DNA from: a virus
Strand: one strand, 5' to 3'
Virus record (IMG/VR): IMGVR_UViG_3300040771_000271
Coordinates: 1 to 64,000 of that record
DNA length: 64,000 nt
Under the pieces are notes generated by a model. The model was not told the DNA's origin, did not search any database, and was given only the letters and a program-made list of their open reading frames with translations. Shown here one piece after another: positions 21,102-56,055 of the stretch. Positions within the stretch are counted from its first letter, which is position 1. Each line of letters begins with the position of its first letter. A program made the translations under genes and the position numbers.

Positions 21102-21139
21102 AAGGAATTTTGCAATATAAGTAATAAAACTTAAATTTG
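21102..21139 (+). promoter_or_regulatory. late promoter L1 (portal)
   Basis: -33-position box AAGGAATTTT (21102-21111), 20 bases, -7 box TAAATTTG (21132-21139). It lies between the terminase stop and the portal TTG start (21168). It shares box and spacing with four other late promoters. Confidence 0.8.
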
Positions 21140-21167
21140 TAAATTAAAACACACTAAATTTAGTATT

Positions 21168-23948
21168 TTGAGTAATAACGCATATCATAACTTTTTTAAC
21201 GGTGTAGGATTATCTGGAGAGAATTCTTCAGCACTACCTCCTCAAGCCATACCTGATTCTAAAAAGAATCCAAAATGGGTAGAAGCTAACTTAGATAGAC
21301 TAGAACAAATAGGTTTAAGGCAGTTACGTAAAAACATAGAGTTTGTCGATTACTATAAGATGATACGTGGAGAGATGGTGCTGTCTGATTATGGACTTTC
21401 TGATAAAACTCAAGAGTTTGTAGATTTAGTAAGTGAAGTTCAAATTTCTTCCAACGTTAGGCACTATGACTTTCTAGGAATGATAGTGAATCAAATTGTA
21501 GGGGAGTATGGAAAGTTTAAAGACAATTACATAATTGACACTAGAGATACCTTTTCCCAAAATGAGTACACTAGAGATAAGACAGAAAAAGTAAAAGCTT
21601 ACGCTACTCAGTTATTTGATTTAGAGTTACAGAAAAAACTTGTAGAGGCTGGAGTTGATTTAGATAAACAAGATTTTCAATCAGAGGAAGAACAGCAACA
21701 ATACCTACAATCTTTACAACAACAGAAAGATGCATTAATTGCTCCAGAAGTTATCGAAAAAGACATGAATAAAAATTGGAAAACTAAAGCTGCAGAATGG
21801 GCACAAAAAACCCTAGAGCAAGACAGAGACCGATTTGAAATGGATGAAATGAATAATGAGGAAATAACTGATTATTTATTAACAGGTAGATGGTTTAGGC
21901 ATTATCATATAGGGTATGATTTCTACAGACCTGAAACTTGGAGTCCTATGACAACATTCTTTTCTGAGGATGTGAATATAAAATACCCACAAGACGGAGA
22001 ATATGTAGGTAGAATACATTATTTATCACCCTCTGATATATTAGACCGCTGGGGAAGCAAACTCACTGCAGAACAACAACAAAAACTTTCAGGATATTAC
22101 AATAAAAATTTAGATAATAATTCTACAGGTAGGGAAGGCAATTCATTTAGAAACCTTTTAAATAATAATTTTTCAAAACAACAATACGTACCATTTGAAG
22201 GGTATTATGAATATGACATGACTTTACAACTTCAAGATGCATTTGATGTGCCACTTGGAGAATCTACAGTTATAAACCCTGATGGAACTACAAAACAGGA
22301 AGCTACTTGGTTCTCCCCTATGAATAAAGGAGAAAATAATAGTACTAATTATTATGCAAAACAATTAAGAGGAGATATTGATGTTAGAAGTGATTTAATT
22401 CAAATCACAGAAGGATATTGGAGAAGTTATCAAAGGATTGGCATTTTAAATTATATTACAAAAGATGGAATTCCAGATCAACAAATAGTTACTGATGATT
22501 TAATTAAAGATTTTTTAGTAGAAAATGGAATTAAAAAACTTACTAAAGTAACTCTTGAAGAAATTGAGTCAAATCCAGAGCCAAATACTATAGCTTTCAC
22601 GTACATGCCTCAAATTAGATGGGGCGCAAAAATAAATGCAGGGAACTCTTATTTATCAGAAGATTTATATATAGGTGGAGAAGCATTAGATTATCAAATC
22701 AAAGGTGATAGTAACATCTATGATATGAAACTTCCTGTCGCAGGAATAATTGGAAATTCAATAGCTAAAAAATTAAGACCTTTTATAGTAATGTATAATA
22801 TTTGTATGAATCAAATATTCAACTTACTGGAAAAAGAAATTGGAACATTCTTATTATTTGACGTAAATTATTTACCATCTGAATATAAAGATAATGTAGA
22901 TACTAAGCACACTTTAGAAATGCTTAGAGAAGCCGCAGTAGAAATAGGTATTGTACCTATTGACACTAAAAAACAAAACATGCAAGGGGCAGGACAAGGT
23001 ATGAATACATTCATGTCTCAATCTATAACTTTTACAGACCAAATTAATAATAGAATGAACTTAGCTGAAAGATATAAACTTTTAGCTTTAGAGCAAATAG
23101 GAATAAACCCTCAAAGAATAGGTGCAGCTAGTGAGTATTCAACAGCTGAGGGAATCAAGCAAGGTTTGACAGCCTCTTACGCCCAAACAGAGCCTTTATT
23201 TTCAGCAATGTCAACAGCAAACAAAAAAGCAACTCACGTACACTTAGTTGTAGCGCAATATTGCCAAAAGAATTATAAAGATGTATCTTATTACTATACA
23301 AAATCGGATGGTGATAAAACCTTTATAGAACTATCTGATCCTTATTTTCCTTTAAGACATTTTGGAATTGTTTCCACAAATAATTCTAATGATAAAAAAG
23401 AGTTGGAAAACCTTAAAAATATAATGTTACAAAACAATACTCAAGGTTCAGATATGTTAGACTTTGCTCAAATTGTTAAAGCAAAAACTATTACAGATTT
23501 ACTATCTTTTGGTAATCAAAATAGAATAGAAAAACAAAGAGACGTAGAAGCACAGAGAGCACACGAACAAGAATTAGCAGATAAAAACTTAGCCGCAATT
23601 AAAGCTGAAAAAGACGCTGATAGATTATTCACTCAAACAGAAAGTCAAAAAGATAGAGATAATGCTATAGAAAGGGAAGAGATAAATGCTTTGGGACGAG
23701 CTTCAGATAAAGACGCAAACGCAGAATCTTTTGATAGAATACAATCTGCAGCCCAAACAGACTTACAAAACAGTATGAAATTTGAGGAGATAGAAATGAA
23801 AAAATCTTTAAGTAAATTAAAGGAAGAGGATTTTAAAACTAAAAAAGAGTTTGAGCAGAAAAAGCTTGAGCTTCAACAAGAGTCCCTACAAGTACAAAGG
23901 GATAAGATGGCTTCAGCAGAAAGAATAGCTTTGTATAATCCAGGATAA
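21168..23948 (+). CDS. portal protein
   Basis: The 926-residue protein starts with TTG (SNNAYHNFFNGVG). Its position directly after TerL, its size, a mixed alpha/beta body with the segment PQAIPDSKKNPKWVEANLDR, and a long C-terminal alpha-helical region fit the large portals of crAss-like phages. That region (about residues 790-920, e.g. RDVEAQRAHEQELADKNLAA, DFKTKKEFEQKKLELQQESL) forms a coiled coil resembling the barrel/crown. It would form the dodecameric vertex ring that nucleates the prohead and binds terminase. Identification is by order and architecture; a direct motif is not available. Confidence 0.8.
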   Translation: MSNNAYHNFFNGVGLSGENSSALPPQAIPDSKKNPKWVEANLDRLEQIGLRQLRKNIEFVDYYKMIRGEMVLSDYGLSDKTQEFVDLVSEVQISSNVRHYDFLGMIVNQIVGEYGKFKDNYIIDTRDTFSQNEYTRDKTEKVKAYATQLFDLELQKKLVEAGVDLDKQDFQSEEEQQQYLQSLQQQKDALIAPEVIEKDMNKNWKTKAAEWAQKTLEQDRDRFEMDEMNNEEITDYLLTGRWFRHYHIGYDFYRPETWSPMTTFFSEDVNIKYPQDGEYVGRIHYLSPSDILDRWGSKLTAEQQQKLSGYYNKNLDNNSTGREGNSFRNLLNNNFSKQQYVPFEGYYEYDMTLQLQDAFDVPLGESTVINPDGTTKQEATWFSPMNKGENNSTNYYAKQLRGDIDVRSDLIQITEGYWRSYQRIGILNYITKDGIPDQQIVTDDLIKDFLVENGIKKLTKVTLEEIESNPEPNTIAFTYMPQIRWGAKINAGNSYLSEDLYIGGEALDYQIKGDSNIYDMKLPVAGIIGNSIAKKLRPFIVMYNICMNQIFNLLEKEIGTFLLFDVNYLPSEYKDNVDTKHTLEMLREAAVEIGIVPIDTKKQNMQGAGQGMNTFMSQSITFTDQINNRMNLAERYKLLALEQIGINPQRIGAASEYSTAEGIKQGLTASYAQTEPLFSAMSTANKKATHVHLVVAQYCQKNYKDVSYYYTKSDGDKTFIELSDPYFPLRHFGIVSTNNSNDKKELENLKNIMLQNNTQGSDMLDFAQIVKAKTITDLLSFGNQNRIEKQRDVEAQRAHEQELADKNLAAIKAEKDADRLFTQTESQKDRDNAIEREEINALGRASDKDANAESFDRIQSAAQTDLQNSMKFEEIEMKKSLSKLKEEDFKTKKEFEQKKLELQQESLQVQRDKMASAERIALYNPG

Positions 23949-24001
23949 ATTAAATAATATTTAAGTAATTAAATATCTAATAAGGCTATAAGCCATAATA
24001 T

Positions 24002-24039
24002 AAGTAATTTTCGTATTAAAGTAAAAACCAATAAATTTG
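24002..24039 (+). promoter_or_regulatory. late promoter L2 (scaffold and major capsid)
   Basis: Box AAGTAATTTT (24002-24011), 20 bases, -7 box TAAATTTG (24032-24039). The ATG of the scaffold-like gene begins at 24048, so the transcript has a leader of at most a few bases. Confidence 0.85.
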
Positions 24040-24047
24040 TAACATAA

Positions 24048-25115
24048 ATGACAGTAGATAACATTCAAGAAGGAAGCACTAGCTTTGAATCTCTAGCCGA
24101 GTTTGATTTTGAAATACCTGAAGCAAAGGTAGAAAATAAAGCTAAAGAAGAAACTCCTGATATTGATTTTGTCTCTAAAGAAGAAGTAGAGACAATAGAA
24201 GAAAAAAAAGAAAAGCCTGCAGAATTAGATTTAGATAATAAACCTAATCAATATTCAAAATTAGCTCAAAAGTTAATTGAAAGAGGTGAGTGGGCAGATG
24301 CAGAAATTGTAAATGAAGACGGAAGTAAAGTAATGTTATCTGAATTGAAAGATTTAGATGAAGACAGATACTTAGAAATTCTAGAAAATCAAAAAGCTTT
24401 TAAAGACGAAGAACTTAAAGAAAAGTACACTAGTGTTGAAGGTTTAGACGACCACAAAAAAAGACTTATAAACATCATAAAAGAAGGAGGAGACTTAACT
24501 CAAATCTTTCAAGACACAAATTCTATTCAAAGACCCTTTGAACAAGTAGATTTAGATGATGAAAATACTTGCGCTAATATAGTTTATAGACAGCATTTAG
24601 CAAATGGACTAGATGAAAAAGAAGCTACAGAACTTACCAAACTTGCACAAAAAGACTTCACTCTTGATGAAAAAGCTAAAAAAATTGTAGGATACCACCA
24701 AAGTAACTATGATAAACATTTAGAAGAAACAGAAGAAGCTCTAAAACAAGAAAAAGTAAAAGAGCAAGAACAGTTAAAAGTTTATAGAACTTCTCTTTCA
24801 AAAAGCTATAAAGATTTAGGTATTCAAGATAGTCAAGTTAAAAAATTAATTGATTTAGCCACAAGAGAAAATCAAGAAGGAGTTTTAGAAGTTGACAGTT
24901 TATATGAGAAGATGATGGAGAATCCAGAAACAGCTCAAGAACTAATATACTTTTTAGCCGACAAAGAAAACTACTTGAAATTAAAATCTTTAGATATTAA
25001 AAGAAAAGATAATATCCAAACTTACAAAACAATTAGTTTCGTACCAAAAGATAAAGTTAAAAAAGTAGCAACAACCACAGAAGATACAAATGTTCCATTT
25101 GATTTTGGAATATAA
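24048..25115 (+). CDS. scaffolding-like protein, 355 aa
   Basis: This 355-residue acidic protein is Glu/Asp/Lys-rich and predicted mainly helical (e.g. DEDRYLEILENQKAFKDEEL, EETEEALKQEKVKEQEQLKV), with flexible N- and C-terminal ends (FEIPEAKVENKAKEE; TTTEDTNVPFDFGI). Charge, low aromatic content and its place between portal and major capsid are typical of scaffolds. The short terminal FDFGI may be the capsid-contacting tip, as in other scaffolds with C-terminal binding motifs; this is inference. Confidence 0.7.
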   Translation: MTVDNIQEGSTSFESLAEFDFEIPEAKVENKAKEETPDIDFVSKEEVETIEEKKEKPAELDLDNKPNQYSKLAQKLIERGEWADAEIVNEDGSKVMLSELKDLDEDRYLEILENQKAFKDEELKEKYTSVEGLDDHKKRLINIIKEGGDLTQIFQDTNSIQRPFEQVDLDDENTCANIVYRQHLANGLDEKEATELTKLAQKDFTLDEKAKKIVGYHQSNYDKHLEETEEALKQEKVKEQEQLKVYRTSLSKSYKDLGIQDSQVKKLIDLATRENQEGVLEVDSLYEKMMENPETAQELIYFLADKENYLKLKSLDIKRKDNIQTYKTISFVPKDKVKKVATTTEDTNVPFDFGI

Positions 25116-25148
25116 CAACAACAATTCAATAATAAAAACAACACAACA
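25111..25148 (+). promoter_or_regulatory. A-rich translation leader of the capsid gene (duplicated copy)
   Basis: The sequence from the upstream stop to the capsid ATG starts ATATAACAACAACAATTCAA and ends AAAACAACACAACA before ATGAGC. Nearly the same leader stands before the 653-residue structural gene (28604-28646). It has no Shine-Dalgarno sequence; unstructured A/C-rich leaders favour translation in Bacteroidetes. Confidence 0.7.
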
Positions 25149-26837
25149 ATGAGCGTTACGCAATCAAACAAGTCTCTTTTTAATGGAGACCACGTAATTA
25201 AGTTTACAGATAGAAAGACAGTCCAAAGTATTCAAGGATACCAAGACCTTTCTTCTATGGGAGCTTGGTATCAAGAAGACCCAAATAAACACCACTTAGG
25301 ACTTATGTCTTTATGGGGACAGCAAGCAAGAACAACTTACCCAATGTACAGAGAATTATTGGCTGACAAAGCAGTAATGGAAGTAAATGGCACAGATGGT
25401 TCATTCACTTATGACATTGCTATCAAAGAAACAACAAACTGTACAACTATTAGAGATACTTCAAACCAAGATTTTCCAGGTTTAGATGAGTCTGCTTTCA
25501 AAATTGTACTTACTAAACAATTCGCTCCAGGAGATATTATTTCTGCTGACCCTTTATTTGGAGAGCAATTAGTTGTATCTCAAGACGATGAAGTAGTTAT
25601 GCGTAATGAAGGTTTTGAACATTCAGTGAAACTAGTTTCTACATCTAAGAGAGCTTATTATGATGCTGCATTACTTGTTAAAGGTATTCAGTATTACAAA
25701 GTAGCTCACACAATGTTTGGTGAATATGCACAAAACTACTCTAACGTAGATTTTATGGATTCTCCAACTACTATGACTTGCCAATTCCAATTAGGAAACA
25801 TGTCAGGTGTTGAAGCTATGGTTACAGGATCAGCCGATAGAAAAACTATGGGTGGAGCTACAGCACACGCAAGAGCTTATGTTGATGACCTTATGAACGA
25901 AGCTATGGACTTAGGAGAATTTGCAGTAATTGCAGATAGAGATGGAGTTACAGGTAAAGCTAAATCATCTTCTATGCGTATTGGAGCAACTATGGAATTC
26001 TTAGTTCACAGAGAGCATGAGAAATTAGTAGCTCAAGCATTACTTTTCCAAAAAGCAGGTGTAATCCGTGAGTCAAGTGGAGTAGCAAGATTAAATGAAG
26101 GATTGTGGCATCAAATTCGCCGAGGAAAACTTATCAAATATGGTAGACCAGGTGGAATCACTAGAGCACACATCAAAGAAGCAGTAGAATACGTATTTAG
26201 AGCTAATGACAAACCTGCAGAGGAAAGAGTTGTTAAATTTAAAGGTGGTAAAGAAGCTGTAGATAATATCTATCAAATCTTTAAAGAGGAAGTTGGAGCA
26301 CAAGTTGCATCATTAGCGCCTTTCATGGGTTCTGACAGAGTTTTACCAACTAATCCTGTATCAGGAAACTTGTTGAATTTAAAATTAGCTCCTGTACGTT
26401 TTACAGAAGTTTATATTCCTGGAATTGGAAATCTTCAAATTGAGGAAGACCCGTCTTTGAATAACATTCCGATGACAGACCGTTTCCAAAAAGGCATGCA
26501 TTCAAACAATAGAGCACACACAGTTTACTCTCTTGTAATTTGGGACGTAGCAGATTCTTACTACTCTAACAATAAAACTATGCCAAAAGGAGCAACAGTT
26601 ATTGAAGGTGGTAACACTAAAGCTAACATCTACTTGGTAAAACCAGAAGGAGAAATGACATATTGGGGTTCTGACAATGGACGTTACAATAACAAAAAAG
26701 CTTCTGACGTTATTAGTTCATACAAAACAATGGCTCAATCATTCTGGATTCACTCTTCTGTAGCATTACACGTTAGAGATTTAACTCGATTTGTAGTTAT
26801 AGAATTGGACGAAGCAGCAAGAAAAGGATTTAATTAA
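25149..26837 (+). CDS. major capsid protein
   Basis: The 562-residue protein begins MSVTQSNKSLFNGDHV. It follows the scaffold-like gene, is preceded by a leader shared with another abundant protein, and is closed by a terminator. All this fits the major capsid protein of the HK97 fold with an extended N-terminal arm. Visible features are a mixed strand/helix body (RMGATMEFLVH, HLGLMSLWGQQARTTYPMYR, YVEYVFRANDKP-type segment) and a strand-rich end (SSVALHVRDLTRFVVIELDE). Sequence motifs cannot prove the fold. The order (TerL, portal, scaffold, capsid) is the evidence. Confidence 0.75.
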   Translation: MSVTQSNKSLFNGDHVIKFTDRKTVQSIQGYQDLSSMGAWYQEDPNKHHLGLMSLWGQQARTTYPMYRELLADKAVMEVNGTDGSFTYDIAIKETTNCTTIRDTSNQDFPGLDESAFKIVLTKQFAPGDIISADPLFGEQLVVSQDDEVVMRNEGFEHSVKLVSTSKRAYYDAALLVKGIQYYKVAHTMFGEYAQNYSNVDFMDSPTTMTCQFQLGNMSGVEAMVTGSADRKTMGGATAHARAYVDDLMNEAMDLGEFAVIADRDGVTGKAKSSSMRIGATMEFLVHREHEKLVAQALLFQKAGVIRESSGVARLNEGLWHQIRRGKLIKYGRPGGITRAHIKEAVEYVFRANDKPAEERVVKFKGGKEAVDNIYQIFKEEVGAQVASLAPFMGSDRVLPTNPVSGNLLNLKLAPVRFTEVYIPGIGNLQIEEDPSLNNIPMTDRFQKGMHSNNRAHTVYSLVIWDVADSYYSNNKTMPKGATVIEGGNTKANIYLVKPEGEMTYWGSDNGRYNNKKASDVISSYKTMAQSFWIHSSVALHVRDLTRFVVIELDEAARKGFN

Positions 26838-26852
26838 TTTAAAAAATAAAAA

Positions 26853-26877
26853 AGCCCCAATGTAAAAGTTGGGGTAA
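26853..26877 (+). terminator. hairpin terminator after the major capsid gene
   Basis: CCCCAA (26855-26860) pairs with TTGGGG (26869-26874), with AGC/GT flanks, followed by TAATATG. The T-run is weak but the stem is strong in AT-rich surroundings. It lies 18 bases after the capsid stop codon and before late promoter L3. Confidence 0.65.
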
Positions 26878-26895
26878 TATGTAAATCTAGTTTGT

Positions 26896-26933
26896 AAGTA
26901 ATTTTATTTAGGCTTATTAATATTGTATTTTTG
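26896..26933 (+). promoter_or_regulatory. late promoter L3 (connector and 653-aa structural gene)
   Basis: Box AAGTAATTTT (26896-26905, preceded by TTTGT), 20 bases, -7 box TATTTTTG (26926-26933). Leader of about 22 bases before ATG 26960. Confidence 0.85.
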
Positions 26934-26959
26934 CAGATAATAAACCAAAAAAAAGTAAA

Positions 26960-27937
26960 ATGGCAGCATTAAAAAATACAGACGAAAAATTTAGTATTAA
27001 AGTTCATGGATTTGATATTTCATCAGATACAATTTATAAAGTAGTACCTAAGTTAGATACTCAAGCCCCAGATGGTTTTATAGCACATGATACTACAAAG
27101 ATACTAAACCCAGAAATAGGAACTTCAGTACCTATGGCAGTTTGGGATGGTGACAGAGGAGTTTGGGATACAGGTCTTCACGAAAATTCTAAAGTATTAG
27201 TTAGATTATATCCAGACCCAAAAGCAAGAGCAGAAGTATTAAAAGGGTTAAAAAAATACATCATAGACCCTGTTGAAGCTATTAAAGGTAGAGGAATTTT
27301 AACTCACATCCAACCTAGAGATGAAGATTCATTTTGGGACAATGCCTCCACAAATCTAGTAAAAGATTTAACTTTCTCAACTAGTAATCCTATGGATTTA
27401 TTATCTTTATACTCTGCAGTGTTACATGCAAATCTAGCTCCTAAATCAATGGAGGAAGATCCAACATTTAGAACTAAAGCTCAATTTGCAGTTCAAAATA
27501 TAGAACAGGTTGTAGACTTAAAACAACGAAAAGATTTAGAAAGAAATAAAGCTATTGGATTATTCTTTACAATGTTAACTCAAAACAAAGACGACCTTAT
27601 AGTTATCTTGGATTACTTAGGAATCCCTAGTACTAATAACCCAGATGAAGCAGCATTAAACAGTGTATTTACAGAGTGGTTGAATAACAAAGAGAACGGA
27701 TACCAAAATGCTTCAATATTTGTTGAAACTTACACATTTTTCCAAACAAAAGAAGGTAAAGAAGAATTAAAAATATTCTCAACACTTAAAGAATTACTTA
27801 GAAAAGGTTCTATTAAAAGAAAGATGGGAGCTATTTACCTAGATGATATAGATTTAGGAGCTAACTTAAAAATAGCCGCAAAAGGAGCAGTGAAATCAGA
27901 AGAAATACAAGAACTGATTTTTAATAAATTGACTTAG
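26960..27937 (+). CDS. virion structural protein, connector candidate, 325 aa
   Basis: The 325-residue protein has a strand-rich first half (FSIKVHGFDISSDTIYKVVP, MAVWDGDRGVW) and a helical second half (EEDPTFRTKAQFAVQNIEQV, ERNKAIGLFFTMLTQ). It ends KGAVKSEEIQELIFNKLT. Placed after the capsid in the same late block, it is a head-completion, tail-adaptor or decoration candidate. Family not recognised from sequence alone. Confidence 0.65.
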   Translation: MAALKNTDEKFSIKVHGFDISSDTIYKVVPKLDTQAPDGFIAHDTTKILNPEIGTSVPMAVWDGDRGVWDTGLHENSKVLVRLYPDPKARAEVLKGLKKYIIDPVEAIKGRGILTHIQPRDEDSFWDNASTNLVKDLTFSTSNPMDLLSLYSAVLHANLAPKSMEEDPTFRTKAQFAVQNIEQVVDLKQRKDLERNKAIGLFFTMLTQNKDDLIVILDYLGIPSTNNPDEAALNSVFTEWLNNKENGYQNASIFVETYTFFQTKEGKEELKIFSTLKELLRKGSIKRKMGAIYLDDIDLGANLKIAAKGAVKSEEIQELIFNKLT

Positions 27938-27942
27938 AATTA

Positions 27943-28608
27943 ATGGATATAAATAAAGCTTACCAAAAATTTATTATAAAGATAAATAAAAATGCTACTA
28001 CAGATAGCATCTCATGTGATAAAGGTAGGTTTGCAATAATTCTAAATGAATCTCAAAATAAGTTTCAAGAATTTATTTTAGATAAAAAAGGAGACGATGA
28101 AATCAGATATATTCAACATTTATTAGTAGAAGACTATTTGATTTCATCTTCTAATCCTCAAAAAGATTCCCAAGATTTCCCTTTACCAAAAAATTATTTT
28201 GACCTATCAAGTGTACATGCAGAAGCCACCAAAGGTATTTGTACAAAACAAAAGATAGATTTATTTGAAATAAAAAATGATGATAGAAATAACATCTTAA
28301 GTGATGAATTTAATAAACCATCATTTAAATACCGAGAAGCACCATACAATCTCACTTCAAATAAAATCAAAGTTTATAAAGAAGACTTTGAAATAGAAAA
28401 TTTAGTATTATCATACTACAGATATGCTAAACAAATTGAACTACAAGACTCAGAAGACCCTGAAAGTGATTTTAAAAACACCTCTTTCCTAGAGTGGGAT
28501 GATAAAACAGCAGACAGAGTAATTAGTTTAGCAGCTTCAGAATTTGAACTTAATAATGGTTCTGAAAAATATCAAGCAAACAAGTTAAATTCCGCACAAA
28601 AAATATAA
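27943..28608 (+). CDS. virion structural protein, connector candidate, 221 aa
   Basis: The 221-residue protein begins MDINKAYQKFIIKINKNATT. It includes an aromatic/charged helix (NLVLSYYRYAKQIELQDSED) and a terminal SLAASEFELNNGSEKYQANKL. It has no signal or membrane segments. Its place (capsid, 325-aa gene, this gene, abundant 653-aa gene) suggests a head-tail joining or stopper component, common in this position in crAss-like genomes. Exact function unknown. Confidence 0.6.
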   Translation: MDINKAYQKFIIKINKNATTDSISCDKGRFAIILNESQNKFQEFILDKKGDDEIRYIQHLLVEDYLISSSNPQKDSQDFPLPKNYFDLSSVHAEATKGICTKQKIDLFEIKNDDRNNILSDEFNKPSFKYREAPYNLTSNKIKVYKEDFEIENLVLSYYRYAKQIELQDSEDPESDFKNTSFLEWDDKTADRVISLAASEFELNNGSEKYQANKLNSAQKI

Positions 28609-28646
28609 CAACAACAATTCAAATATTAAATAAAAACAACACAACA
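28604..28646 (+). promoter_or_regulatory. A-rich translation leader of the 653-aa structural gene (duplicated copy)
   Basis: The leader starts ATATAACAACAACAATTCAA and ends AAAACAACACAACA before ATGAGC, matching the leader of the major capsid gene with a small insertion (ATATTAAA-type) in the middle. It suggests the same high translation level for the two proteins. Confidence 0.7.
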
Positions 28647-30608: not shown

Positions 30609-30631
30609 TCAAATAATAATTAATACTAATT

Positions 30632-30668
30632 AGGAGAGAGAAATTAAAATCCTCTCTCCTTTTTTTAT
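30632..30668 (+). terminator. strong intrinsic terminator after the 653-aa structural gene
   Basis: AGGAGAGAG (30632-30640) pairs perfectly with CTCTCTCCT (30652-30660), followed by seven Ts. It separates the late structural unit from the lysis genes, which have no clear promoter directly upstream. Confidence 0.9.
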
Positions 30669-30681
30669 AAAGTAGAATTAC

Positions 30682-31110: not shown

Positions 31111-31373
31111 GATGGTTAAATAAAATAATTAAAGATACTCTTATGAGTAACGGGCGTTGGTCTAGAAAAAGTCTAACCACTATAACTACTTTTATTTTCG
31201 TTTTAGCTTTAGGAACATTCATAGTAATTTCAGACAAAATATTGGACAAACCTGTCAACGTTTATGCTTTATCAGTCTTTCAATCATTGCTGGTTTTTTT
31301 AGGAACATTGATGGGAATAACTGAATTTTCTAAAAAAGTAGCTAATAAACAAGCTCCTGTAAATGAAGAATAA
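31107..31373 (+). CDS. holin-like membrane protein, 88 aa
   Basis: The 88-residue protein has a basic N-terminus (MRWLNKIIKDTLMSNGRWSR) and two hydrophobic stretches (TTFIFVLALGTFIVIS, about 28-43; VFQSLLVFLGTLMGITEFS, about 56-74), with a charged tail. Two TM helices, small size and overlap with the upstream gene and near-contact with the downstream endolysin gene fit a class II holin. It would form membrane pores that release the endolysin. Sequence alone cannot exclude a different membrane role. Confidence 0.65.
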   Translation: MRWLNKIIKDTLMSNGRWSRKSLTTITTFIFVLALGTFIVISDKILDKPVNVYALSVFQSLLVFLGTLMGITEFSKKVANKQAPVNEE

Positions 31374-31376
31374 ATT

Positions 31377-32651: not shown

Positions 32652-32669
32652 CAACTAAACAAAAAAACA

Positions 32670-32963: not shown

Positions 32964-32964
32964 T

Positions 32965-33507: not shown

Positions 33508-33522
33508 AAAACTAACACTACA

Positions 33523-33879: not shown

Positions 33880-33882
33880 AAA

Positions 33883-40324: not shown

Positions 40325-40362
40325 AAGTAATTTTAAAAAATAAGTATAATATAGTATATTTG
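40325..40362 (+). promoter_or_regulatory. late promoter L4 (neck, IHF-like, ring and muzzle genes)
   Basis: Box AAGTAATTTT (40325-40334, preceded by TTGT), 20 bases, -7 box TATATTTG (40355-40362). The ATG of the first gene starts at 40367, so the mRNA should be leaderless. Confidence 0.85.
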
Positions 40363-40366
40363 CAGA

Positions 40367-41032
40367 ATGAATAATCGAGAATTTGTATCAAGAGTGTTAA
40401 ACGGACTAAAGTCTTTAAGTAAGGACTCTATGATTTCACGCCGTTTTATTTTAAAAGTAGGACAAGAAAAAGCAAAGTTTTTTATATCTCAAAAAGCAGG
40501 AGAAAACTCAATATATAGAGAAGATAACTTATTGTCAAGTTTAAACTGTTTTGAATTAAAAAAAATAGATATTATTGATTGCCCTATTATAGAGTTTAGA
40601 ACTTGTAAACAGTTAATGCAGTCTAAGAAAAAACTACCTGAACTAATTTACAGTAAGTTTGGCTCAAGTATAAAAGAAGTTACTTCATTAGATGGAGAAC
40701 ACTTGATAAAACCTATTACTCTTGCACAATACAGATTAAATAAACAAAGAAAAGACGCATCAAAAGACTTATATTTTTATATAAAAGATAATTATTTATA
40801 TATACCAGATACAGAAGTAGAAATAGTAAATGTTTCCCTAATAACTTTAGATTTATTTGACCTTGATGAATTATCCTCGTGCAAAGAAAGTAATTGCAAA
40901 TCAGCTTGGGATTACGATTTTATATGCAGTGACAAATTAATGGAAGTTGTTATCTCAGAAACTATAAAAGAAGTAGTACTATCGAAGCAAGTGCAAGAAG
41001 ATCAAAACCCTAACTTAAATGAAGGTAGCTAA
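40367..41032 (+). CDS. crAss-like neck/ring protein candidate, 221 aa
   Basis: The 221-residue protein begins MNNREFVSRVLNGLKSLSKD, with SRRFILKVGQEKAKFFISQK, EYRTCKQLMQ-like FRTCKQLMQSKKKLPEL and a Cys-containing middle. A protein of this kind directly before the IHF-like and ring genes is a conserved crAss-like arrangement (from memory). It would belong to the head-tail neck. The start codon follows the promoter so closely that no ribosome-binding site can exist upstream. Confidence 0.6.
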   Translation: MNNREFVSRVLNGLKSLSKDSMISRRFILKVGQEKAKFFISQKAGENSIYREDNLLSSLNCFELKKIDIIDCPIIEFRTCKQLMQSKKKLPELIYSKFGSSIKEVTSLDGEHLIKPITLAQYRLNKQRKDASKDLYFYIKDNYLYIPDTEVEIVNVSLITLDLFDLDELSSCKESNCKSAWDYDFICSDKLMEVVISETIKEVVLSKQVQEDQNPNLNEGS

Positions 41033-48203: not shown

Positions 48204-48212
48204 AAAGTAACT

Positions 48213-49148
48213 ATGGCTTGTAACTGCCCCAATATAAATTGTACTCAAGAAACTATAAATAGTATAGTATACTGTAATTGCACAACTACTATACAAAATA
48301 TATCTTGTCCAGAAGGTTGTGACACAGTGATACTACCTAACGGAAACGCTGTATGTGAATGCATAGAAAGTGTTGAACCTACAGTAACTGAAATAAAAAT
48401 ACCAATAGAACTTACAAATCCTATATATTTTAAGGATGTAAGTTTTACAGTAGCTTATAGTCCTGTATTAGAAAAGTGGATAAGTTATTATAGCTTTGCT
48501 CCAAACTATTATCTAAATCATCAAAACTATTTCCAAACAGGAATAAACAATTCAAACACTTCTTTTGAAAAAGGGTTGTGGAGTCACTTACTAACAAATC
48601 AATCTTATCAAGTTTTCTATGGTAAAAAGTATCCTTTCATAATAGATTACACAACAAAAACAGCATTAACTTCAAAAGTTGTAAACTCTATAAACTTTAA
48701 TCTAAATACTAGAAGATACCACGATGAACATGATTGGGCAGAAATAGAAAATAAACCTATGTCAGCTATAACAATATATAATAATTTAGCTAACAGTGGT
48801 GAGTTAAGACTTGTAAATAATACAGGACAAACAAGTCTTATAAACAAGTATCCCAAAACCGCAATAAATGGTAAAAGTCAAGAAATATTAACAACTCATA
48901 AAGAAGAGCAATGGTTTGTAAATTACTTTTATAATAGAGTTGTAGACAATAATCAAAACAAGCCATTGTGGCTATGGGATGAAAATCAAATAAATAAAAC
49001 TATAAATACAAATGTAGTAAAGTTTAAAGGAAAATCGGTACTTGAGAACATAAAAGGTATGTTTGCAAATGTAAGATTAACTCAAGATGTAGAAACACAA
49101 TTCCAATACGTTTACAGGTTTGGAGTAGCTAATGAAAAACCAGAATAA
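48213..49148 (+). CDS. split-off C-terminal domain of the muzzle family, 311 aa
   Basis: The 311-residue protein has a Cys-rich N-terminus (ACNCPNINC, SIVYCNCTT, ISCPEGCDTVILPNGNAVCE), then FKDVSFTVAYSPVLEKWISY, YSFAPNYYLNHQNYF and GLWSHLLTNQSYQVFYGKKY. These are the strand motifs of the C-terminal portion of crAss-like muzzle/Tstab proteins (known of the family, recalled). In this phage it is a separate gene, 9 bases after the 1894-residue gene. The two may act as one fused unit with an interface made by the Cys-rich ends. Confidence 0.75.
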   Translation: MACNCPNINCTQETINSIVYCNCTTTIQNISCPEGCDTVILPNGNAVCECIESVEPTVTEIKIPIELTNPIYFKDVSFTVAYSPVLEKWISYYSFAPNYYLNHQNYFQTGINNSNTSFEKGLWSHLLTNQSYQVFYGKKYPFIIDYTTKTALTSKVVNSINFNLNTRRYHDEHDWAEIENKPMSAITIYNNLANSGELRLVNNTGQTSLINKYPKTAINGKSQEILTTHKEEQWFVNYFYNRVVDNNQNKPLWLWDENQINKTINTNVVKFKGKSVLENIKGMFANVRLTQDVETQFQYVYRFGVANEKPE

Positions 49149-49330
49149 TGAGGTACAAAGAATATAAAGAGGGAGGAAAAACTTCAGGAGATAAAAAAGT
49201 ATATGCTTACAACTATTATCTTAAAAAAGGAGTGCCTGCAATACAAGCTGCAGGTATTGTTGGGAACTTAGCTGCGGAATCAGCCTTTGACACAACAGTT
49301 GTAGGTAAGGCTGATAGCAAGCAAATATAA
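49148..49330 (+). pseudogene. truncated phage-lysozyme gene (N-terminal fragment), 60 aa
   Basis: The 60-residue frame begins MRYKEYKEGGKTSGDKKVYA, followed by YNYYLKKGVPAIQAAGIVGN and LAAESAFDTTVVGKADSKQI. The GVxxxQAAGIVGNxxxES segment is the start of the phage tail lysozyme family (Phage_lysozyme2). The domain stops just where the GIY-YIG gene begins (one base later), and the rest of the lysozyme does not follow. The same MR[FY]KEYK-x-GG N-terminus begins the intact protein at 50152. A disrupted remnant, possibly still translated. Confidence 0.75.
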
Positions 49331-49331
49331 A

Positions 49332-50162
49332 ATGGTAGTAGTTTATAGACATATTAGATTAGATACTAATGAAGTTTTTTACATTGGTATAGGAGCAAAG
49401 GAAATAAGAGCTTATGCAACAAAAGATAGGAGTAATTGGTGGAATAATATAATATCAAAAACTCTTTATGAAGTTGAAATAATTTTTGAACATGAAGACT
49501 ATGAATTTATCAAAGAAAAGGAGAAAGAGTTTATAAAATTATATGGTAGAAGAGATTTAGGATTAGGCACTTTAGTAAATATGACAAATGGTGGAGAAGG
49601 AACAATAGGTGTAGAGATAACTGAAGATCAAAGAGCAGTTAGGAGAGATCAAATGATGGGTTGTAAAAATCCTTTTTATGGTAAAAAACATACTGAAGAG
49701 ACCAAAAAGAAAATAAGTGATGTAAATTCTAATGTAATAGTTTCACAAGAAACAAGAAGTAAATTGAGTAAAGCTTTAAAAGGACGAGAAGTTACATTAG
49801 AAGAGATGGAAAAGCGATACTCTAAAAATAATCATATTACTAGAGGTTGTTATCATATTATTACAGGGCAGTATTTTAAAAGTTTAGCGGAAGGATGTAG
49901 ATATTTTAAAATAGGATACAGAGTTGAAAAAAATAGAGTATTGCAAAAAGGTAGATATAGGTCTTTTGATTACGCTGAAAAAGATATTCGTAGTTCAGAG
50001 TTTACTTGCTTTGATGAAATTACCAATAGGAAGTTTAAGTCTTTAGCCGAAGCATGTAGAGAGTTAGGCTTAAACTATAATCAAACCCGAAAAAAATATA
50101 AAAGTGGTTTAATAAGAATTAAAAGTATATCTGAAATAAAACAAAATAAAAATGAGGTTTAA
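49332..50162 (+). CDS. GIY-YIG homing endonuclease with NUMOD modules
   Basis: The 276-residue protein has VYRHIRL and VFYIGIGA (GIY-YIG strands, about 4-22), AYATKDRSNWW, then NPFYGKKHTEETKKKISDVN (NUMOD3). Two C-terminal NUMOD1-like units follow (YHIITGQYFKSLAEGCRYFK; FDEITNRKFKSLAEACRELG). It is inserted next to a truncated lysozyme gene and the next gene's start overlaps its stop. The presence of the endonuclease explains the truncation: homing or its imperfect repair may have deleted the recipient's remainder. Confidence 0.9.
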   Translation: MVVVYRHIRLDTNEVFYIGIGAKEIRAYATKDRSNWWNNIISKTLYEVEIIFEHEDYEFIKEKEKEFIKLYGRRDLGLGTLVNMTNGGEGTIGVEITEDQRAVRRDQMMGCKNPFYGKKHTEETKKKISDVNSNVIVSQETRSKLSKALKGREVTLEEMEKRYSKNNHITRGCYHIITGQYFKSLAEGCRYFKIGYRVEKNRVLQKGRYRSFDYAEKDIRSSEFTCFDEITNRKFKSLAEACRELGLNYNQTRKKYKSGLIRIKSISEIKQNKNEV

Positions 50163-53052
50163 AGAGTATAAAAATGGAGGAAGCATAGACCCAAATTATT
50201 ACACAAGGCTTTCTGAAATAGAGAGTAATAATAATTCACAAGCAAGAAGTAAAACTTCAAGTGCTAGTGGCAAGTTTCAGTTTATAAAATCTACTTGGGA
50301 AGGGCTTACTAAAAAGTATAATTTATCTTATAATTTAGAGGATAGATTTGACCCAGAAAAATCAAGAAAAGTAGCTGAACTTTATACTCAGGAAAATGCA
50401 AATTATTTAAAAAATAATTTAGGTATTACACCAAATAATACAGATTTATACGCTGCACATTTTATGGGAGTTGGAGGAGCATCTAAATTATTATCAACTT
50501 TAAGAAATAATCCAAACGCATCCGCTTATGAAGTAGCTACAACTGCTCAGATAAATGCTAATAAACCTATTTTTTTAAGAAAAGATGGAACAGTTAAAAC
50601 GGCAAAAGAAGTTTATGACACGTTGAACTATAAAGTCACTAAAAATAGCGCTCCTACACAAAACACTCAAGAAGAAACACAACAGAATGACCCTTATAGA
50701 TTCAGCGAATACAAAAAAACAGACTACTACGCTCCACAAGTAAGTGAAAATATAAGTAGTTTGGATAATACACAAGAAACCACTAATTTAGCAGAAGATA
50801 AAGCAACAGAAATTAAAAACAGGTTAGAGCAGAAAAAAACAGAAAAAGCTTTACTACAACAAATGATTTTAGCTACACAGGTAGCTTACGTAAATCCTGC
50901 TGATTATCAATCACAACCTACATTTGAAGAGCCTCAAGAAGGACAAATGTTTCAAAGAGGCGGTGTTTCACAATTTAAGAAAAAACCTTTTCAATTACAA
51001 GACGAAAGGAGTAACATTGCAACAGAAAACACTAAGGTAAATAATTATAACAACTCAAGACTGTTTAATCCAAATGTAAGGAATAAAACAGATAAAGAAA
51101 TTGCACAAGAAAGAGAAGTAAAAATACAAACAAGTGTAGAAGCGCAAAAAACACCCTACACAAAAGAAAATTGGAGAAAGCAATTAGCAGCAGAAACAAA
51201 TGCAACAGGAGATAAATTAAGAGTTTCAAATGAACCTAATTTTTTTGATGATTATTTAAATCCCGCTGTAATGATAGGAAGTATGGCAAGTAATTTAGGA
51301 CAAGCTCCTTTACAAGCAGAACAATCAGATTCTGTATTACCTTATGTAACATCAATTGGAGCTCCATTAACAGTAGGAGCTTTAGCAGGGTTAGGTACAC
51401 AAACAACAGGACAATTTGTAAATAACTTGGCAAATCCTTTAGCAGGAACAGGGGATTTAGTAAATAATTTAGGTAATAAATACTTACCTAATGCTTATAA
51501 GTTAAATCCTAAAGCCTTCAAACCTTCTGCAGATAAATTTTATAGACAAGTTGATAATACAACTTATAATGAAGGATTAGAAAGTGGTATAATAAGAGGA
51601 AAACAAGATGTAGATATGACTCAAGGGGAGGGAATTATTAATTTAAATAGGTCGTTTGGAGATGACGCTTATTATAATAAAAGTTCTTTATACTATAAAG
51701 ATAATAAAGACTTACCTTATTTATTTGAAGCTAATTTACCAGAAGAAATGTTCATTCCTAAATTAAACGGCAGAACAAGAAAGCTAACAACTGAAAACAC
51801 TTCTGTTAGAGTGTCTAAAGAACCTTTATCTATAAATGATCCTAATATTACAACATACAAAAAAGATTGGCTACAAGGTTATAAAAAAATGCCAACACAA
51901 CAAGGAGATAATACAGTTTTAGGATTAGGAAAAATAGGTATTTCAGACACAGATACTTTTAAATCAGAAATAAATTGGAGTCAATGGAATAAAGAAATTC
52001 CAGATAATCCCCAATTAATGCAAGAGTATAATGCAATAGAACAAACTTCTAAAGCAAATAAAACTTGGATGAAAAATCCTGATGGTTCAAAGTTTCAAGG
52101 AACTCCCGAACAATTTGTACAGCAGAATAGTGAAAACTTTAAAAAAGCTTTTCCTAGAGGGGTTGATAAAACATATAGAGGGAGTTGGTCTCAAAAATCT
52201 TATAAGGGAAGATTAAATGAAGATAATACAAAAGGAGCTGTTTTTACAGGAGATGAAGAAAGTATTAAAAAAAGTTATGCGCCAGAAAAAATTTTCAAAA
52301 GCGCATCAGAAAAATATAGAAGAGGTTTGCACGAGCTTTACTATCCAAAAAGTGAAAATAGTTTCCTACTTGACGCACAAAATAGCAATTGGAGAAATAT
52401 TGATAAAAAATTATTACCAGAAAACGTTCAAGATATAAGTAGTAAATCAAGAGTTAGTACCGATGATATTGCAAAATACGTAGAGAAAAATGATATTGCC
52501 TACGCTAAAATAAAAAATGTCGATGACGCAGGGCTTATAAAAGAAGAAATTATTTTTAATCATAAACCTAATAACTATCTAAAGTCTGTTTGGGGAAACA
52601 ACGGAATGTTTGACATGACAAATCCTAATATATACAAATCAATAGTTCCAATAGCAGGAGCATCATATTTAGCAACACAGCAAGAAGAATTTAAAAACGG
52701 AGGAGAAAAAAACTCACTCTGGAAAAACATAAGAGCCAACAGAGGTTCAGGCAAAAAGCCAACAAAAGAAATGTTGAAACAGGAGAGAAAGATAAACCGT
52801 AAAGAAGATGGTGGGGCAATACCAATAAGCTCACAAGGAATGTACGAATACCAAAATCAAGAGGTTATTGTACCTACTAATGGATCAATAACAATGAAAA
52901 ATATTCCTCATGATATATTAGGAATATCACAAGAAACAGGTCAACAAATTTTAATGAAACCTGAAAAAGAGTACTTCTTTCCAAATACTCAAAATGTACT
53001 TGAAATCCCACAAACAAAATCGAGAATAAAAACAAAAAGATTTTCAAAATAA
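50152..53052 (+). CDS. virion ejection-type protein with lytic transglycosylase and ADP-ribosyltransferase-like domains, 966 aa
   Basis: The 966-residue protein has an N-terminal transglycosylase-type domain (about 11-165: YYTRLSEIESNNN with candidate Glu24, ASGKFQFIKSTWEGLTKKYN). A Gln/Asn-rich linker with FQRGG (267-271) and a first ART-like segment (KFYRQVDNTTYNEGLESGII, Arg465; FGDDAYYNKSSLYY) follow. A second ART-like domain (TYRGSWSQKSYKGRLN with Arg676; GAVFTGDEESIKKSYAP) ends SVWGNNGMFDMTNPNIYKS (about 812-830), the typical end of phage polyvalent-protein ARTs. A charged tail with FKNGG and EDGG closes it. It may enter the host with the DNA. ART function is a homology-based inference. 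Confidence 0.65.
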   Translation: MRFKEYKNGGSIDPNYYTRLSEIESNNNSQARSKTSSASGKFQFIKSTWEGLTKKYNLSYNLEDRFDPEKSRKVAELYTQENANYLKNNLGITPNNTDLYAAHFMGVGGASKLLSTLRNNPNASAYEVATTAQINANKPIFLRKDGTVKTAKEVYDTLNYKVTKNSAPTQNTQEETQQNDPYRFSEYKKTDYYAPQVSENISSLDNTQETTNLAEDKATEIKNRLEQKKTEKALLQQMILATQVAYVNPADYQSQPTFEEPQEGQMFQRGGVSQFKKKPFQLQDERSNIATENTKVNNYNNSRLFNPNVRNKTDKEIAQEREVKIQTSVEAQKTPYTKENWRKQLAAETNATGDKLRVSNEPNFFDDYLNPAVMIGSMASNLGQAPLQAEQSDSVLPYVTSIGAPLTVGALAGLGTQTTGQFVNNLANPLAGTGDLVNNLGNKYLPNAYKLNPKAFKPSADKFYRQVDNTTYNEGLESGIIRGKQDVDMTQGEGIINLNRSFGDDAYYNKSSLYYKDNKDLPYLFEANLPEEMFIPKLNGRTRKLTTENTSVRVSKEPLSINDPNITTYKKDWLQGYKKMPTQQGDNTVLGLGKIGISDTDTFKSEINWSQWNKEIPDNPQLMQEYNAIEQTSKANKTWMKNPDGSKFQGTPEQFVQQNSENFKKAFPRGVDKTYRGSWSQKSYKGRLNEDNTKGAVFTGDEESIKKSYAPEKIFKSASEKYRRGLHELYYPKSENSFLLDAQNSNWRNIDKKLLPENVQDISSKSRVSTDDIAKYVEKNDIAYAKIKNVDDAGLIKEEIIFNHKPNNYLKSVWGNNGMFDMTNPNIYKSIVPIAGASYLATQQEEFKNGGEKNSLWKNIRANRGSGKKPTKEMLKQERKINRKEDGGAIPISSQGMYEYQNQEVIVPTNGSITMKNIPHDILGISQETGQQILMKPEKEYFFPNTQNVLEIPQTKSRIKTKRFSK

Positions 53053-53054
53053 TT

Positions 53055-56006
53055 ATGAAAAAAAAACTAAATAGAAAACCTGCATATAAAAAAGGAGGAG
53101 AAAGTTGGGTAAGTGATAAAATGGCTAATCTACCTATGTATCAAATGGGAACACAAACCACTTTATCATCTACACTAGGATTTAAACAATCTCCTATGAA
53201 CTTACAAGCTCAAGAAAATAAATTAGACCCAAACAGTTTAAATTATGGAGAAAATTGGGCTAACAACAATCCATTACCACAAATGGGCATGAATGGTTTT
53301 AGCTATAGTCCAAACGCTGTAGGCAACTTGAACGAAGTTCCATCAGACATACTAAAACAAAACCAAGAGCAGTCCTCTTCAAACAATACAATTAGTGAAG
53401 ATACAACGCAACCACAACAATTTATGAACAATTATGGTGGGGTTGATATAGAATCAAGACTTGCTTATGGAGCTAATCAATTAGGTAAAGGAAATACAGC
53501 TCAAGGTATTCTAGGTATTGCTTCTGGAGCTTTAGGAATAGCTAGAACAGGAGTGGGAGCATATGCTGCAGGAAATAGAGAAAAATATATTATGAATGAA
53601 TATAATGATAAAGTAAACAAATCAATGACTCCAAGAACAATGTCCCTAGAAGACGGAGGAATGATTGACTTTATGCAAAAGGGAGGGTACAATTATAACA
53701 AGACAGGTAATATAGATCTTAACAATAATGATGTAAAACAAGTTAATAAGAACTTACAAGGATTAGGCTTACAATTTGATGAGGAGTTTGCCAAAGCTTA
53801 TTTTTCAACAGAACTTACACCACCAACACAAACAGTTAATTCTCAACCAAAAATACAAAACACAAACGTGTTGGACATTACTTCAGACGGACAGTTTACA
53901 GATAGAAAAGTCTGGAGAAATCAAAAGCCAGAATGGTACGTAGGTAAACAAGAAGCTATAGAAGGTAGAGATTACACAACAGTTCCTTATAAGCAATGGG
54001 AGAATTACAAGATGACCCCTGAATATAATAAATTTCAGAATAGAGATACTAGAGTAGCAGAATTTCAAGAAGGAGGACAAGCAGTTCAAGACCAAGTTAT
54101 GCAAATAATTCAAATGTATGCTCAAATGGCTCAACAAGACCCTCAAGCTATAATGGAACAATTACAACAAATGTCTCCAGAAGAACAGCAACAAGCTATT
54201 CAACAAATGGCTCAATCTTTACAACAACCTCAACAGGAACAGCAGTTTCAGAAGGGAGGCGAATTCGCAAAAAAGCTTACGGGGGAATACACAACCCCCT
54301 TAGATGAGAATGACCCTACTATAAACGCCGAAGTTGAAAAAGATGAATACTTACAATCACCTGATGGTGAAATTACACGTGCACTAGGGGAAACTCATGA
54401 GAAAAATGGCACAAAAGTAAATTTAGAAGGAGGAACACGCATAGTATCTGACCACTTAAAACTAGGCGGAGTAAATGCAAAACACTATAAAGAAAATTTT
54501 GACTTAGAAGTAAAAGCTACTGACACTTATGCAAAAGTACTAGATAGATTTACAAAAAAATCAGGTTTACAAAAAATTGTTGACGAGCAAGAAAAAGTTA
54601 TAGAGCAATTGAAAAAATCAGAGGAATCTGTTCAAGGAAGTAGTATATCTGAATCTACAAATAATCTTAATAAAATGTTTCTCTCAGAAAAATTATCTGA
54701 ATTAGAACAAGAAAAATCACCATTATTAGAAGCTAGAAAAGCCCTAATGGATGATGTGTTTCAAAGACAAGAGGCTTCAAAACCTGCGGAAGAAAGTTCA
54801 CAAGAACAATTCCAGATAGGAGGAACATCAAAACCTTATGGAGAAAATTGGACAAATGAAGATAAGAAACAAAGATATTTAGGATTTCTACAACAAGCCA
54901 GATTTTCGGGATATGAAGGTAATCTTACAGGTAAAGAATCAAATATAGATAAATCTTGGGGAGAGTTGCAAGCTTATATGAGGAGCAACAAACCTGAAGA
55001 GACAGAAGCTTACGCTAAAAGTGCAAGAATGACAGCAAAAGGGGTAACTATGTTAAAACAGTCTAGACCCGATTTATTTAAGTCTTTAAACATACCATTA
55101 AATAAAAAAGATTCAGAATACTCACAAGAAGAAACAGATAAATTAAAAACAGCTTTAGTAGAGACAGGAACAACACCTCAAGGATTTTGGTTAGAGCAAT
55201 TTAATGATAATTTAGGAGCTTATAGATTCCCAGTGTTACCAACAGATTTAAAAGCAGTAGGTGCAAATATTCAACAAATATCTGCTCCACAATTACCAAA
55301 CTTTTATAAAGAACCTGAAAAGTCACCAACAACAGAAAATACAGAAGTAGGTAAAATTAAAGATCAGCAAGAAGATACAAGAAAGAGTTTAAATCTTATG
55401 ACGCTTCCAAACCAATCGCCTATGATGCCTGATAGCTTAGAAGGAGCTTTAAAAATCACTAGAAGGTATGATAGAGTAGACCCTATGCAATTTTCTCCAG
55501 AACAACAATTAGGAGCAATTAAAGGACAAGAGGCTCAAGCTATGGAGCAAATAAATCAATTACCTGAATCTCAAAGAGCAGGAGCTTTAGCTAATTTATC
55601 AGCTATAACTCAAGAGAACTTAGCAAAAGTATATTCTGACGTAAATAGAACAAATTTAGTAGCGGACAATCAAGCTCAACAATTTAACGCTCAAACTCAA
55701 GCTCAAGAAGAGAATGCAAGAGGAGTAGACTTACAAAGTTATGAGAATAAAATTATGAGAGCTAAAGCAACAACTGATGCAGATAGAAGAGGCTACTATA
55801 ACCAATTGCAGGCGATTGATTTGGCAAATTATAATGCAGTAAATAATACAAACTTGTTAAATCAAATGTATGAAAACTACGGTTATAATGGAAGTAGTGT
55901 AGAACAAACACAAGGAGCGCCAAAATTTAACTATGCACCAAATGGTATTCCTCTAACAAATACAAAGAAGAAAACAACTAAAAAAAGATTTGGAGGTAAA
56001 ATATAA
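53055..56006 (+). CDS. giant virion/ejection protein rich in Gln and [FY]-x-x-GG motifs, 983 aa
   Basis: The 983-residue protein begins KKKLNRKPAYKKGGES and includes a transmembrane-like Gly/Ala stretch (GILGIASGALGIARTG, about 155-170), a Gln-rich region (about 345-400), coiled coils (about 510-570) and a C-terminal helical region. [FYM]-[QK]-x-GG motifs occur at Y11, M207, F337, F398 and F586, plus FGG at the C-terminus (979-981). Three of them follow Gln-rich or flexible segments. It begins 2 bases after the preceding gene, so the two giant genes are co-expressed. Probable cargo protein ejected with DNA; no enzyme domain found. Confidence 0.7.
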   Translation: MKKKLNRKPAYKKGGESWVSDKMANLPMYQMGTQTTLSSTLGFKQSPMNLQAQENKLDPNSLNYGENWANNNPLPQMGMNGFSYSPNAVGNLNEVPSDILKQNQEQSSSNNTISEDTTQPQQFMNNYGGVDIESRLAYGANQLGKGNTAQGILGIASGALGIARTGVGAYAAGNREKYIMNEYNDKVNKSMTPRTMSLEDGGMIDFMQKGGYNYNKTGNIDLNNNDVKQVNKNLQGLGLQFDEEFAKAYFSTELTPPTQTVNSQPKIQNTNVLDITSDGQFTDRKVWRNQKPEWYVGKQEAIEGRDYTTVPYKQWENYKMTPEYNKFQNRDTRVAEFQEGGQAVQDQVMQIIQMYAQMAQQDPQAIMEQLQQMSPEEQQQAIQQMAQSLQQPQQEQQFQKGGEFAKKLTGEYTTPLDENDPTINAEVEKDEYLQSPDGEITRALGETHEKNGTKVNLEGGTRIVSDHLKLGGVNAKHYKENFDLEVKATDTYAKVLDRFTKKSGLQKIVDEQEKVIEQLKKSEESVQGSSISESTNNLNKMFLSEKLSELEQEKSPLLEARKALMDDVFQRQEASKPAEESSQEQFQIGGTSKPYGENWTNEDKKQRYLGFLQQARFSGYEGNLTGKESNIDKSWGELQAYMRSNKPEETEAYAKSARMTAKGVTMLKQSRPDLFKSLNIPLNKKDSEYSQEETDKLKTALVETGTTPQGFWLEQFNDNLGAYRFPVLPTDLKAVGANIQQISAPQLPNFYKEPEKSPTTENTEVGKIKDQQEDTRKSLNLMTLPNQSPMMPDSLEGALKITRRYDRVDPMQFSPEQQLGAIKGQEAQAMEQINQLPESQRAGALANLSAITQENLAKVYSDVNRTNLVADNQAQQFNAQTQAQEENARGVDLQSYENKIMRAKATTDADRRGYYNQLQAIDLANYNAVNNTNLLNQMYENYGYNGSSVEQTQGAPKFNYAPNGIPLTNTKKKTTKKRFGGKI

Positions 56007-56017
56007 TCTCTCAATTT

Positions 56018-56055
56018 AAGCAATTTTTATATACCACAGAAATGTGGTATTTTTG
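56018..56055 (+). promoter_or_regulatory. late promoter L5 overlapping a terminator hairpin
   Basis: Box AAGCAATTTT (56018-56027), 20 bases, -7 box TATTTTTG (56048-56055). The 20-base spacer contains the arms of the terminator hairpin at 56031-56050, and the -7 box is made of the end of the second arm plus the T-run. It drives the 960-residue gene starting at 56076. Confidence 0.8.
56031..56054 (+). terminator. terminator hairpin overlapping late promoter L5
   Basis: ATACCACA (56031-56038), GAAA tetraloop, TGTGGTAT (56043-56050), then TTTTG. It is a perfect 8-bp stem with a GNRA loop, 24 bases after the stop of the 983-residue gene. It closes the unit starting at L4 while its T-run supplies part of the next promoter. 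Confidence 0.85.

Follow-up and report, generated by a model that had tools for sequence, protein, structure and literature searches.

The window analysed here is the first 64,000 bases (1-64000) of the virus record IMGVR_UViG_3300040771_000271, which is 129,922 bases long (~130 kb). Judged by its genes, the phage is a Bacteroidetes virus related to crAss: its terminase shares 46% identity with those of phi4:1 and phi17:2, Cellulophaga phages of the genus Lightbulbvirus, and 33% with that of the gut phage csAssE-Sib; the Crassvirus muzzle protein PF25731 is matched by a protein of 1,894 aa (E 3e-33), and the muzzle is accompanied by TerL and portal relatives in a crAss-like order, the succession TerL-portal-structural-MCP being common to the window genome and csAssE-Sib. 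The + strand carries the virion genes, between ~18.4 kb and 80 kb, and the replication and small genes are mostly on the - strand; intergenic regions make up 5.2% of the genome. The label "late" is assigned here from gene content, not from expression. The late strand also encodes a GroEL-like chaperonin (15462-17030, phrog_5725, E 4e-145), and a GroES-like protein (PF00166) is found at 341-589 on the other strand. A search of the proteins longer than 400 aa of the window genome for the restricted form D[FYLIVMA]D[GIVAS]D of the D-x-D-x-D motif of giant virion RNA polymerases yielded no matches; divergent forms of the motif may be present.

The sequence-only reading had proposed that five late promoters share a new upstream box placed exactly 20 bases before the Bacteroidetes -7 box, that all of them directly precede virion genes, and that the sites are intergenic; all these claims hold. 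In the window the pattern AAGNAATTTT-N20-TAnnTTTG is matched exactly at five places, all on the + strand, against a mean of 0.01 (largest count 1) in dinucleotide shuffles. All five are intergenic and stand 5-29 bases before the starts of the portal gene, the phrog_34402 gene, the gene following the major capsid gene, and the virion genes phrog_9863 and phrog_32131 (Table 1). The other 66 kb of the record have no match to the pattern, and the reversed control pattern has none in the whole record. The box alone occurs seven times in the window, which is near the chance level; the five copies on the + strand are the ones that are intergenic and followed by a -7 box at exactly 20 bases. Among the intergenic TAnnTTTG sites, the box is present at 5 of 9 on the late strand and at 0 of 39 elsewhere (Fisher p = 7e-5). 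The late-strand genes at 64156 (with AATTAATTTG), 74563, 80694 and 81928 have promoter-like sites without the box. A scan for promoters of the E. coli type, not relevant to the Bacteroidetes phylum, gave counts near the shuffled expectation.

A scan of related genomes was also suggested, and the relatives keep the sites at the same genes. In G2 (94% TerL identity) all five sites are found, four of them exact and one with a single mismatch; in G1 (57% TerL identity) four are exact and the fifth has one mismatch, and one more exact site is situated on the other strand. The portal site is exact in phi4:1 and phi17:2, where the portal promoter reads AAGGAATTTT-N20-TAAGTTTG. By comparison of the window genome with G1, the late box is under selection: 46 of 50 box positions and 36 of 40 positions of the -7 box are identical, versus 45 of 100 in the spacers and 60 of 125 in the 25 bases upstream.

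Table 1. Promoters, genes and other elements of the window considered in this study.
Feature	Coordinates	Strand	Details
84-aa protein served by the divergent promoter	14163..14417	-	Common to G1, G2 and G3; no PHROG match
Divergent promoter beside the winged-helix gene	14441..14478	-	AATCTATTTT, a degenerate form of the late box; G1, L042 and L155 have an exact AAG box here
Host-type promoter of the winged-helix gene (read from sequence)	14521..14558	+	TATTTATTTG, 20 bases, TATATTTG; without the AAG triplet
Winged-helix protein, candidate reader of the late box	14582..14953	+	Recognition helix, residues 70-83; H74
Late promoter, portal gene (start 21168)	21102..21139	+	Box 21102-21111 AAGGAATTTT, 20-base spacer, -7 box 21132-21139 TAAATTTG; kept in G1, G2, phi4:1 and phi17:2
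Late promoter before the phrog_34402 gene (24048-25115)	24002..24039	+	Box 24002-24011, -7 box 24032-24039; kept in G1 and G2
Late promoter, gene after the major capsid gene (26960-27937)	26896..26933	+	Box 26896-26905, -7 box 26926-26933; exact in G2, one mismatch in G1
Late promoter, virion gene phrog_9863 (40367-41032)	40325..40362	+	Box 40325-40334, -7 box 40355-40362; kept in G1 and G2
Late promoter, virion gene phrog_32131 (56076-58958)	56018..56055	+	Box 56018-56027, -7 box 56048-56055; exact in G1, one mismatch in G2
Terminator-like hairpin	56031..56050	+	Occupies the spacer of promoter 56018, with the T tract serving as the -7 box

The spacing between the two boxes is rigid. When TAnnTTTG was allowed within 10-30 bases of AAGNAATTTK, the distance was 20 in all 20 cases, coming from six genomes (five each in the window genome, G1 and G2, two each in phi4:1 and phi17:2, the latter represented by a part of its genome, and one in G3). 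In a wider set of relatives, with the -7 box allowed within 12-28 bases, the spacing was 20 at 65 of 67 sites with an AAC version of the box and at 22 of 24 sites with AAG. At the few TAnnTTTG promoters of csAssE-Sib (epsilon-crAss) the box is absent. An exact-pattern scan of all viral contigs produced, among the matches listed, single matches in many contigs whose kinship was unchecked; these are most likely chance background.

If positions are numbered as in F. johnsoniae (T-12 A-11 ... G-5; PMC6847099), the box extends from about -42 to -33. The five window sites have the -7 box of Bacteroidetes sigma-A, TAnnTTTG, and in the -33 register, where the TTTG of sigma-A would be expected, all five have TTTT. 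Hence the claim that the late sites lack TTTG is correct for the register, with two reservations: at site 21102 the box runs into a G (AATTTTG), creating a TTTG one base out of register, and the late boxes of some relatives contain TTTG, as at the same promoters these have AAGTAATTTG (L042 and L155, TTTG intact) or AACGAATTTG. The main group of early promoters in the window genome has the form AATAAATTTG-N20-TATATTTG, so that the early and late boxes differ chiefly in the third base, and in the window genome in the tenth base as well. The 3' half of the late box, AATTTK, shares its register, about -38 to -33, with AATTTG of the early promoters, which carry AAT where the late box has AAG.

The box was originally suggested to replace the upstream element while the host -7 box is kept. 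The second part stands, as does the distinct upstream box at a rigid spacing. A plain replacement of the -33 element was rejected: TTTG is retained in sister phages and the register is common to the early and late boxes, so this element seems to be extended, not simply replaced. By these comparisons, the mark of the late promoters is the 5' triplet at -42 to -40, half a turn upstream of the -33 element. The phage-specific information resides in the upstream triplet, which argues for a factor adjoining sigma region 4 and resembling a class-II activator more than a strict replacement for the upstream element. Sigma remodelling, as in the case of T4 MotA/AsiA (PMC2988021), may also be involved.

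It could be supposed, on the other hand, that the five sites are ordinary strong promoters of host sigma-A, for which an A/T-rich upstream context is preferred and no phage factor is needed. The presence of AATTTK in the register of the early promoters and of TTTG in the late boxes of relatives agrees with this, as does the weak definition of the host -33 element itself, which is hardly visible in F. johnsoniae (PMC6847099). However, a ten-base box with an invariant AAG is restricted to virion genes, the early promoters having AAT, and we consider such an explanation improbable, the more so as the relatives are divided in a manner that a shared sigma preference would not produce.

For the comparison of relatives we considered several dozen related contigs around TerL (57 distinct winged-helix sequences), examining the promoters of the portal gene and of the genes after it. 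Most relatives have an A/T-rich box in the same register, in which the 5' triplet varies. It is AAG in the window genome, G1, G2, L041, L042, L075 and L155; AAC in L045-L050, most of L052-L068, L084 and L163; and TAT, TAC or AAT in L051, most of L069-L092, L164 and L166. Scans of whole records found no AAG site in five AAC genomes and no AAC site in G1 and G2. Genomes of the AAG and AAC types exclude each other's box. Such mutually exclusive triplets are unexpected if the clades merely share a preference of sigma, although their hosts may differ. The latter consideration would also allow a host transcription factor to be the reader, with the boxes of the clades mirroring differences between hosts; yet the restriction to virion genes, the fixed phase, and the core winged-helix gene heading the late strand fit a phage factor better, and a host reader appears very improbable.

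Two further observations were made on the AAC clade. In its portal promoters (L053, L054, L056, L058, L084 and L090) TTAACTAATTTTG occurs twice, the copies being 27 bases apart, and the -7 box itself falls within the second copy. The TerL of L155 belongs to the AAC clade, while the winged-helix recognition helix and late promoters of this genome are nearly identical to those of L042; by this resemblance, TerL alone was probably exchanged. On the TerL tree L155 gives the impression that AAG and H arose separately within the AAC clade, but as its helix and promoters match L042, it was not counted as independent.

A comparison of the late sites with terminator-bounded units had also been suggested. 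A clear hairpin at a unit border was found at two of the five sites, 26855-26874, directly upstream of the 26896 promoter, and 56031-56050; at the other three it was not, so terminator-bounded units cannot be taken as a rule. The second hairpin is stable, with z from -3.8 to -6.1 in three genomes (also G1, 5514 -, and G2, 64292 +), and between the window genome and G1 both of its sides have changed in ways that preserve the pairs. From these pairing data, a terminator and a promoter appear to overlap at 56031-56050.

The winged-helix protein was named as a candidate factor in the sequence-only reading, and its fold, its place, its conservation and its host-type promoter speak in favour of this. 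The gene is the first one of the late strand. It is present in 127 of 137 loci (several loci can be on one contig, and most exceptions are cut contigs), has orthologs in csAssE-Sib (E 2.7e-20) and phi4:1 (gp073), and is among the few non-structural genes common to the window genome, G1, phi4:1 and G3. In the AlphaFold model (pLDDT 89.7), helices 56-66 and 70-83 are followed by wing strands 86-88 and 96-98, that is, a helix-turn-helix precedes a beta wing, as in winged-helix domains. Sequence searches gave no credible Pfam, NCBIfam or PDB family match, and fold searches gave weak MarR/SarX-like matches; MotA was absent among the 50 best PDB fold matches. As for a phage sigma factor, we rejected it, since Pfam models of sigma-70 regions 2 and 4 had no match in the record, while the controls gave matches.

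The identity of residue 74, in the recognition helix, predicts the class of the box in 34 of 35 genomes having at least two agreeing promoters: H corresponds to AAG (7/7), R to AAC (15/15), and N or T to TA or AAT (12/13). The same tendency is seen in counts of individual sites, each at spacing 20: genomes with R74 have 65 AAC and no AAG sites, those with H74 have 22 AAG and no AAC sites, and those with N or T at this position have 24 TA[TC], 8 AAT, 4 AAC and 2 AAG sites. Exceptions to the correspondence are phi4:1, with N74 and AAGG at its only clear late site, L091, with H and a TAAC box, and L124, with N and AAC. Among 2,409 columns of five proteins, residue 74 is the sole one predicting the box class at a level of at least 97% with at most five residue types, this criterion having been chosen post hoc. 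By raw mutual information with the third base of the box it is 11th of 2,510 columns, and many columns of TerL, portal and capsid reach its score, because both the columns and the box class follow the tree.

Residue 74 does not stand out in tree-aware counts, where it ranks 1,236 of 2,503 and 1,102 of 2,501; two of three changes are shared between it and the box, a level reached or passed by many columns. The box changed about three times among these genomes, and hence the covariation test has little power either way. The association of residue 74 with the box class, failing the phylogeny-controlled tests, is suggestive only. Alternatively, the box may be an activator site whose reader is another conserved small phage protein or a factor remodelling sigma region 4, the winged-helix protein having a different function. 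Small non-structural proteins encoded at 17383-17715, 100849-101439 and 127792-127977 are, like the winged-helix protein, common to the window genome, G1, phi4:1 and G3; none of them has a recognisable DNA-binding fold by PHROG match, whereas the winged-helix protein is suited to the role by its fold, place and promoter. We regard a reader of this other kind as unlikely, and the winged-helix protein, by its predicted structure and gene context, as the best candidate reader of the late box.

The winged-helix gene is adjoined by a divergent promoter (Table 1). The box in this promoter is of the genome's own class, AAG in L010, L042 and L155 and AAC in L045; in L050, both the divergent promoter and the portal promoter have GAC. 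The 84-aa protein served by this promoter is a possible feedback regulator. Direct repeats were noted in the same region: they precede the winged-helix gene in many relatives (in the window at 14497-14512, 54 bases before) and are related to the GTTAA-N6-GTTAA repeat (11-base period) of phi4:1, located exactly 44 bases before TAnnTTTG in five early-strand promoters (108546, 116360, 118804, 136104 and 142160, +). The GTTAA repeats possibly mark a middle promoter class with another regulator. Yet another promoter type, as judged from its motif, is represented by the near-identical early-strand promoters TTATTAAGTTTTTCTTGCGGGAAT...TATATTTG, which lie beyond the window on the - strand, at record positions 94931, 99679 and 109719.

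It is known that class-II activators, of the CRP or lambda cI type, bind sites that overlap or abut the -35 element in a fixed phase with host sigma; these are mostly palindromic dimer sites centred near -41.5. The late box resembles them in abutting or overlapping the -33 element, and differs in being short and not palindromic. A phage box combined with the host -10 element has a precedent in T4, where the MotA box takes the place of the -35 element, with its centre at -30 and a distance of 12 +/- 1 bp to the -10 element (PMC2988021). The likeness to the T4 middle promoters (MotA, AsiA) consists in a phage box at a fixed spacing upstream of an unchanged host -10-type element and, presumably, in a small phage DNA-binding protein as its reader. 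In contrast to the MotA box, the window box is at about -42 to -33, overlaps the -33 register and serves virion genes, and its distance from the -7 box is 20 bp at the late sites, not 12 +/- 1 bp. Relative to the Bacteroidetes sigma-A promoters (TTTG/TAnnTTTG), the late promoters have the same -7 box and the same register for TTTK, and add the AAG (AAC, TA[TC]) triplet at -42 to -40 within a near-perfect ten-base box.

Among the Crassvirales, crAss001 and phi14:2 have related virion genes, including the muzzle PF25731. In the portions of the literature consulted, the middle and late genes of these phages are thought to depend on host RNA polymerase (PMC8375218), and no promoter motif was found there (PMC8375218, PMC10136315, PMC7886860). 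A giant virion RNA polymerase is linked to the early genes of these phages. A search covering part of the literature revealed no late promoter motif in either Crassvirales or flavophages.

We are inclined to think, on the sequence evidence assembled above, that the five sites are virion-gene promoters served by the host polymerase with its primary sigma and a sequence-specific phage activator, for which the winged-helix protein is the candidate. The host polymerase would first transcribe the host-type promoters, that of the winged-helix gene included. Sigma region 2 would read TAnnTTTG at -12 to -5, and the winged-helix protein, made earlier, would sit in a fixed phase beside sigma region 4, as do class-II activators or T4 MotA, reading AAG at -42 to -40 and binding AAGNAA at -42 to -37. 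Acting together on TAnnTTTG and the degenerate TTTK, the activator and host sigma would open the virion promoters. If the box and its reader drifted together, each phage clade would acquire its own box; drift of the box is observed, and joint drift is suggestive only. The broader proposal, a clade-wide activator beside Bacteroidetes sigma-A with a co-evolving code (H with AAG, R with AAC, N or T with TA or AAT) that provides each lineage with a private switch of late genes, is a tentative one, and might well prove incorrect.

The crAss-related phages are very abundant, and earlier papers, as far as their consulted parts go, hold that host polymerase probably serves the virion genes. The exact phase, the clade versions of the box and one small candidate protein make the system testable, including in phi4:1 and phi17:2, Cellulophaga phages that are in culture. 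If the winged-helix protein is the reader, AAGNAATTTT would be preferred over AATAAATTTG; if the residue-to-base code is true, the H74R form would prefer AACNAATTTT, and the R ortholog (L054) with H introduced would prefer AAG. The proposed scheme, if true, would make late promoters predictable by a rule across crAss-related phages, and would amount to a phage promoter switch that relies on the unusual sigma factor of Bacteroidetes, of a kind that we did not encounter in the literature searched.
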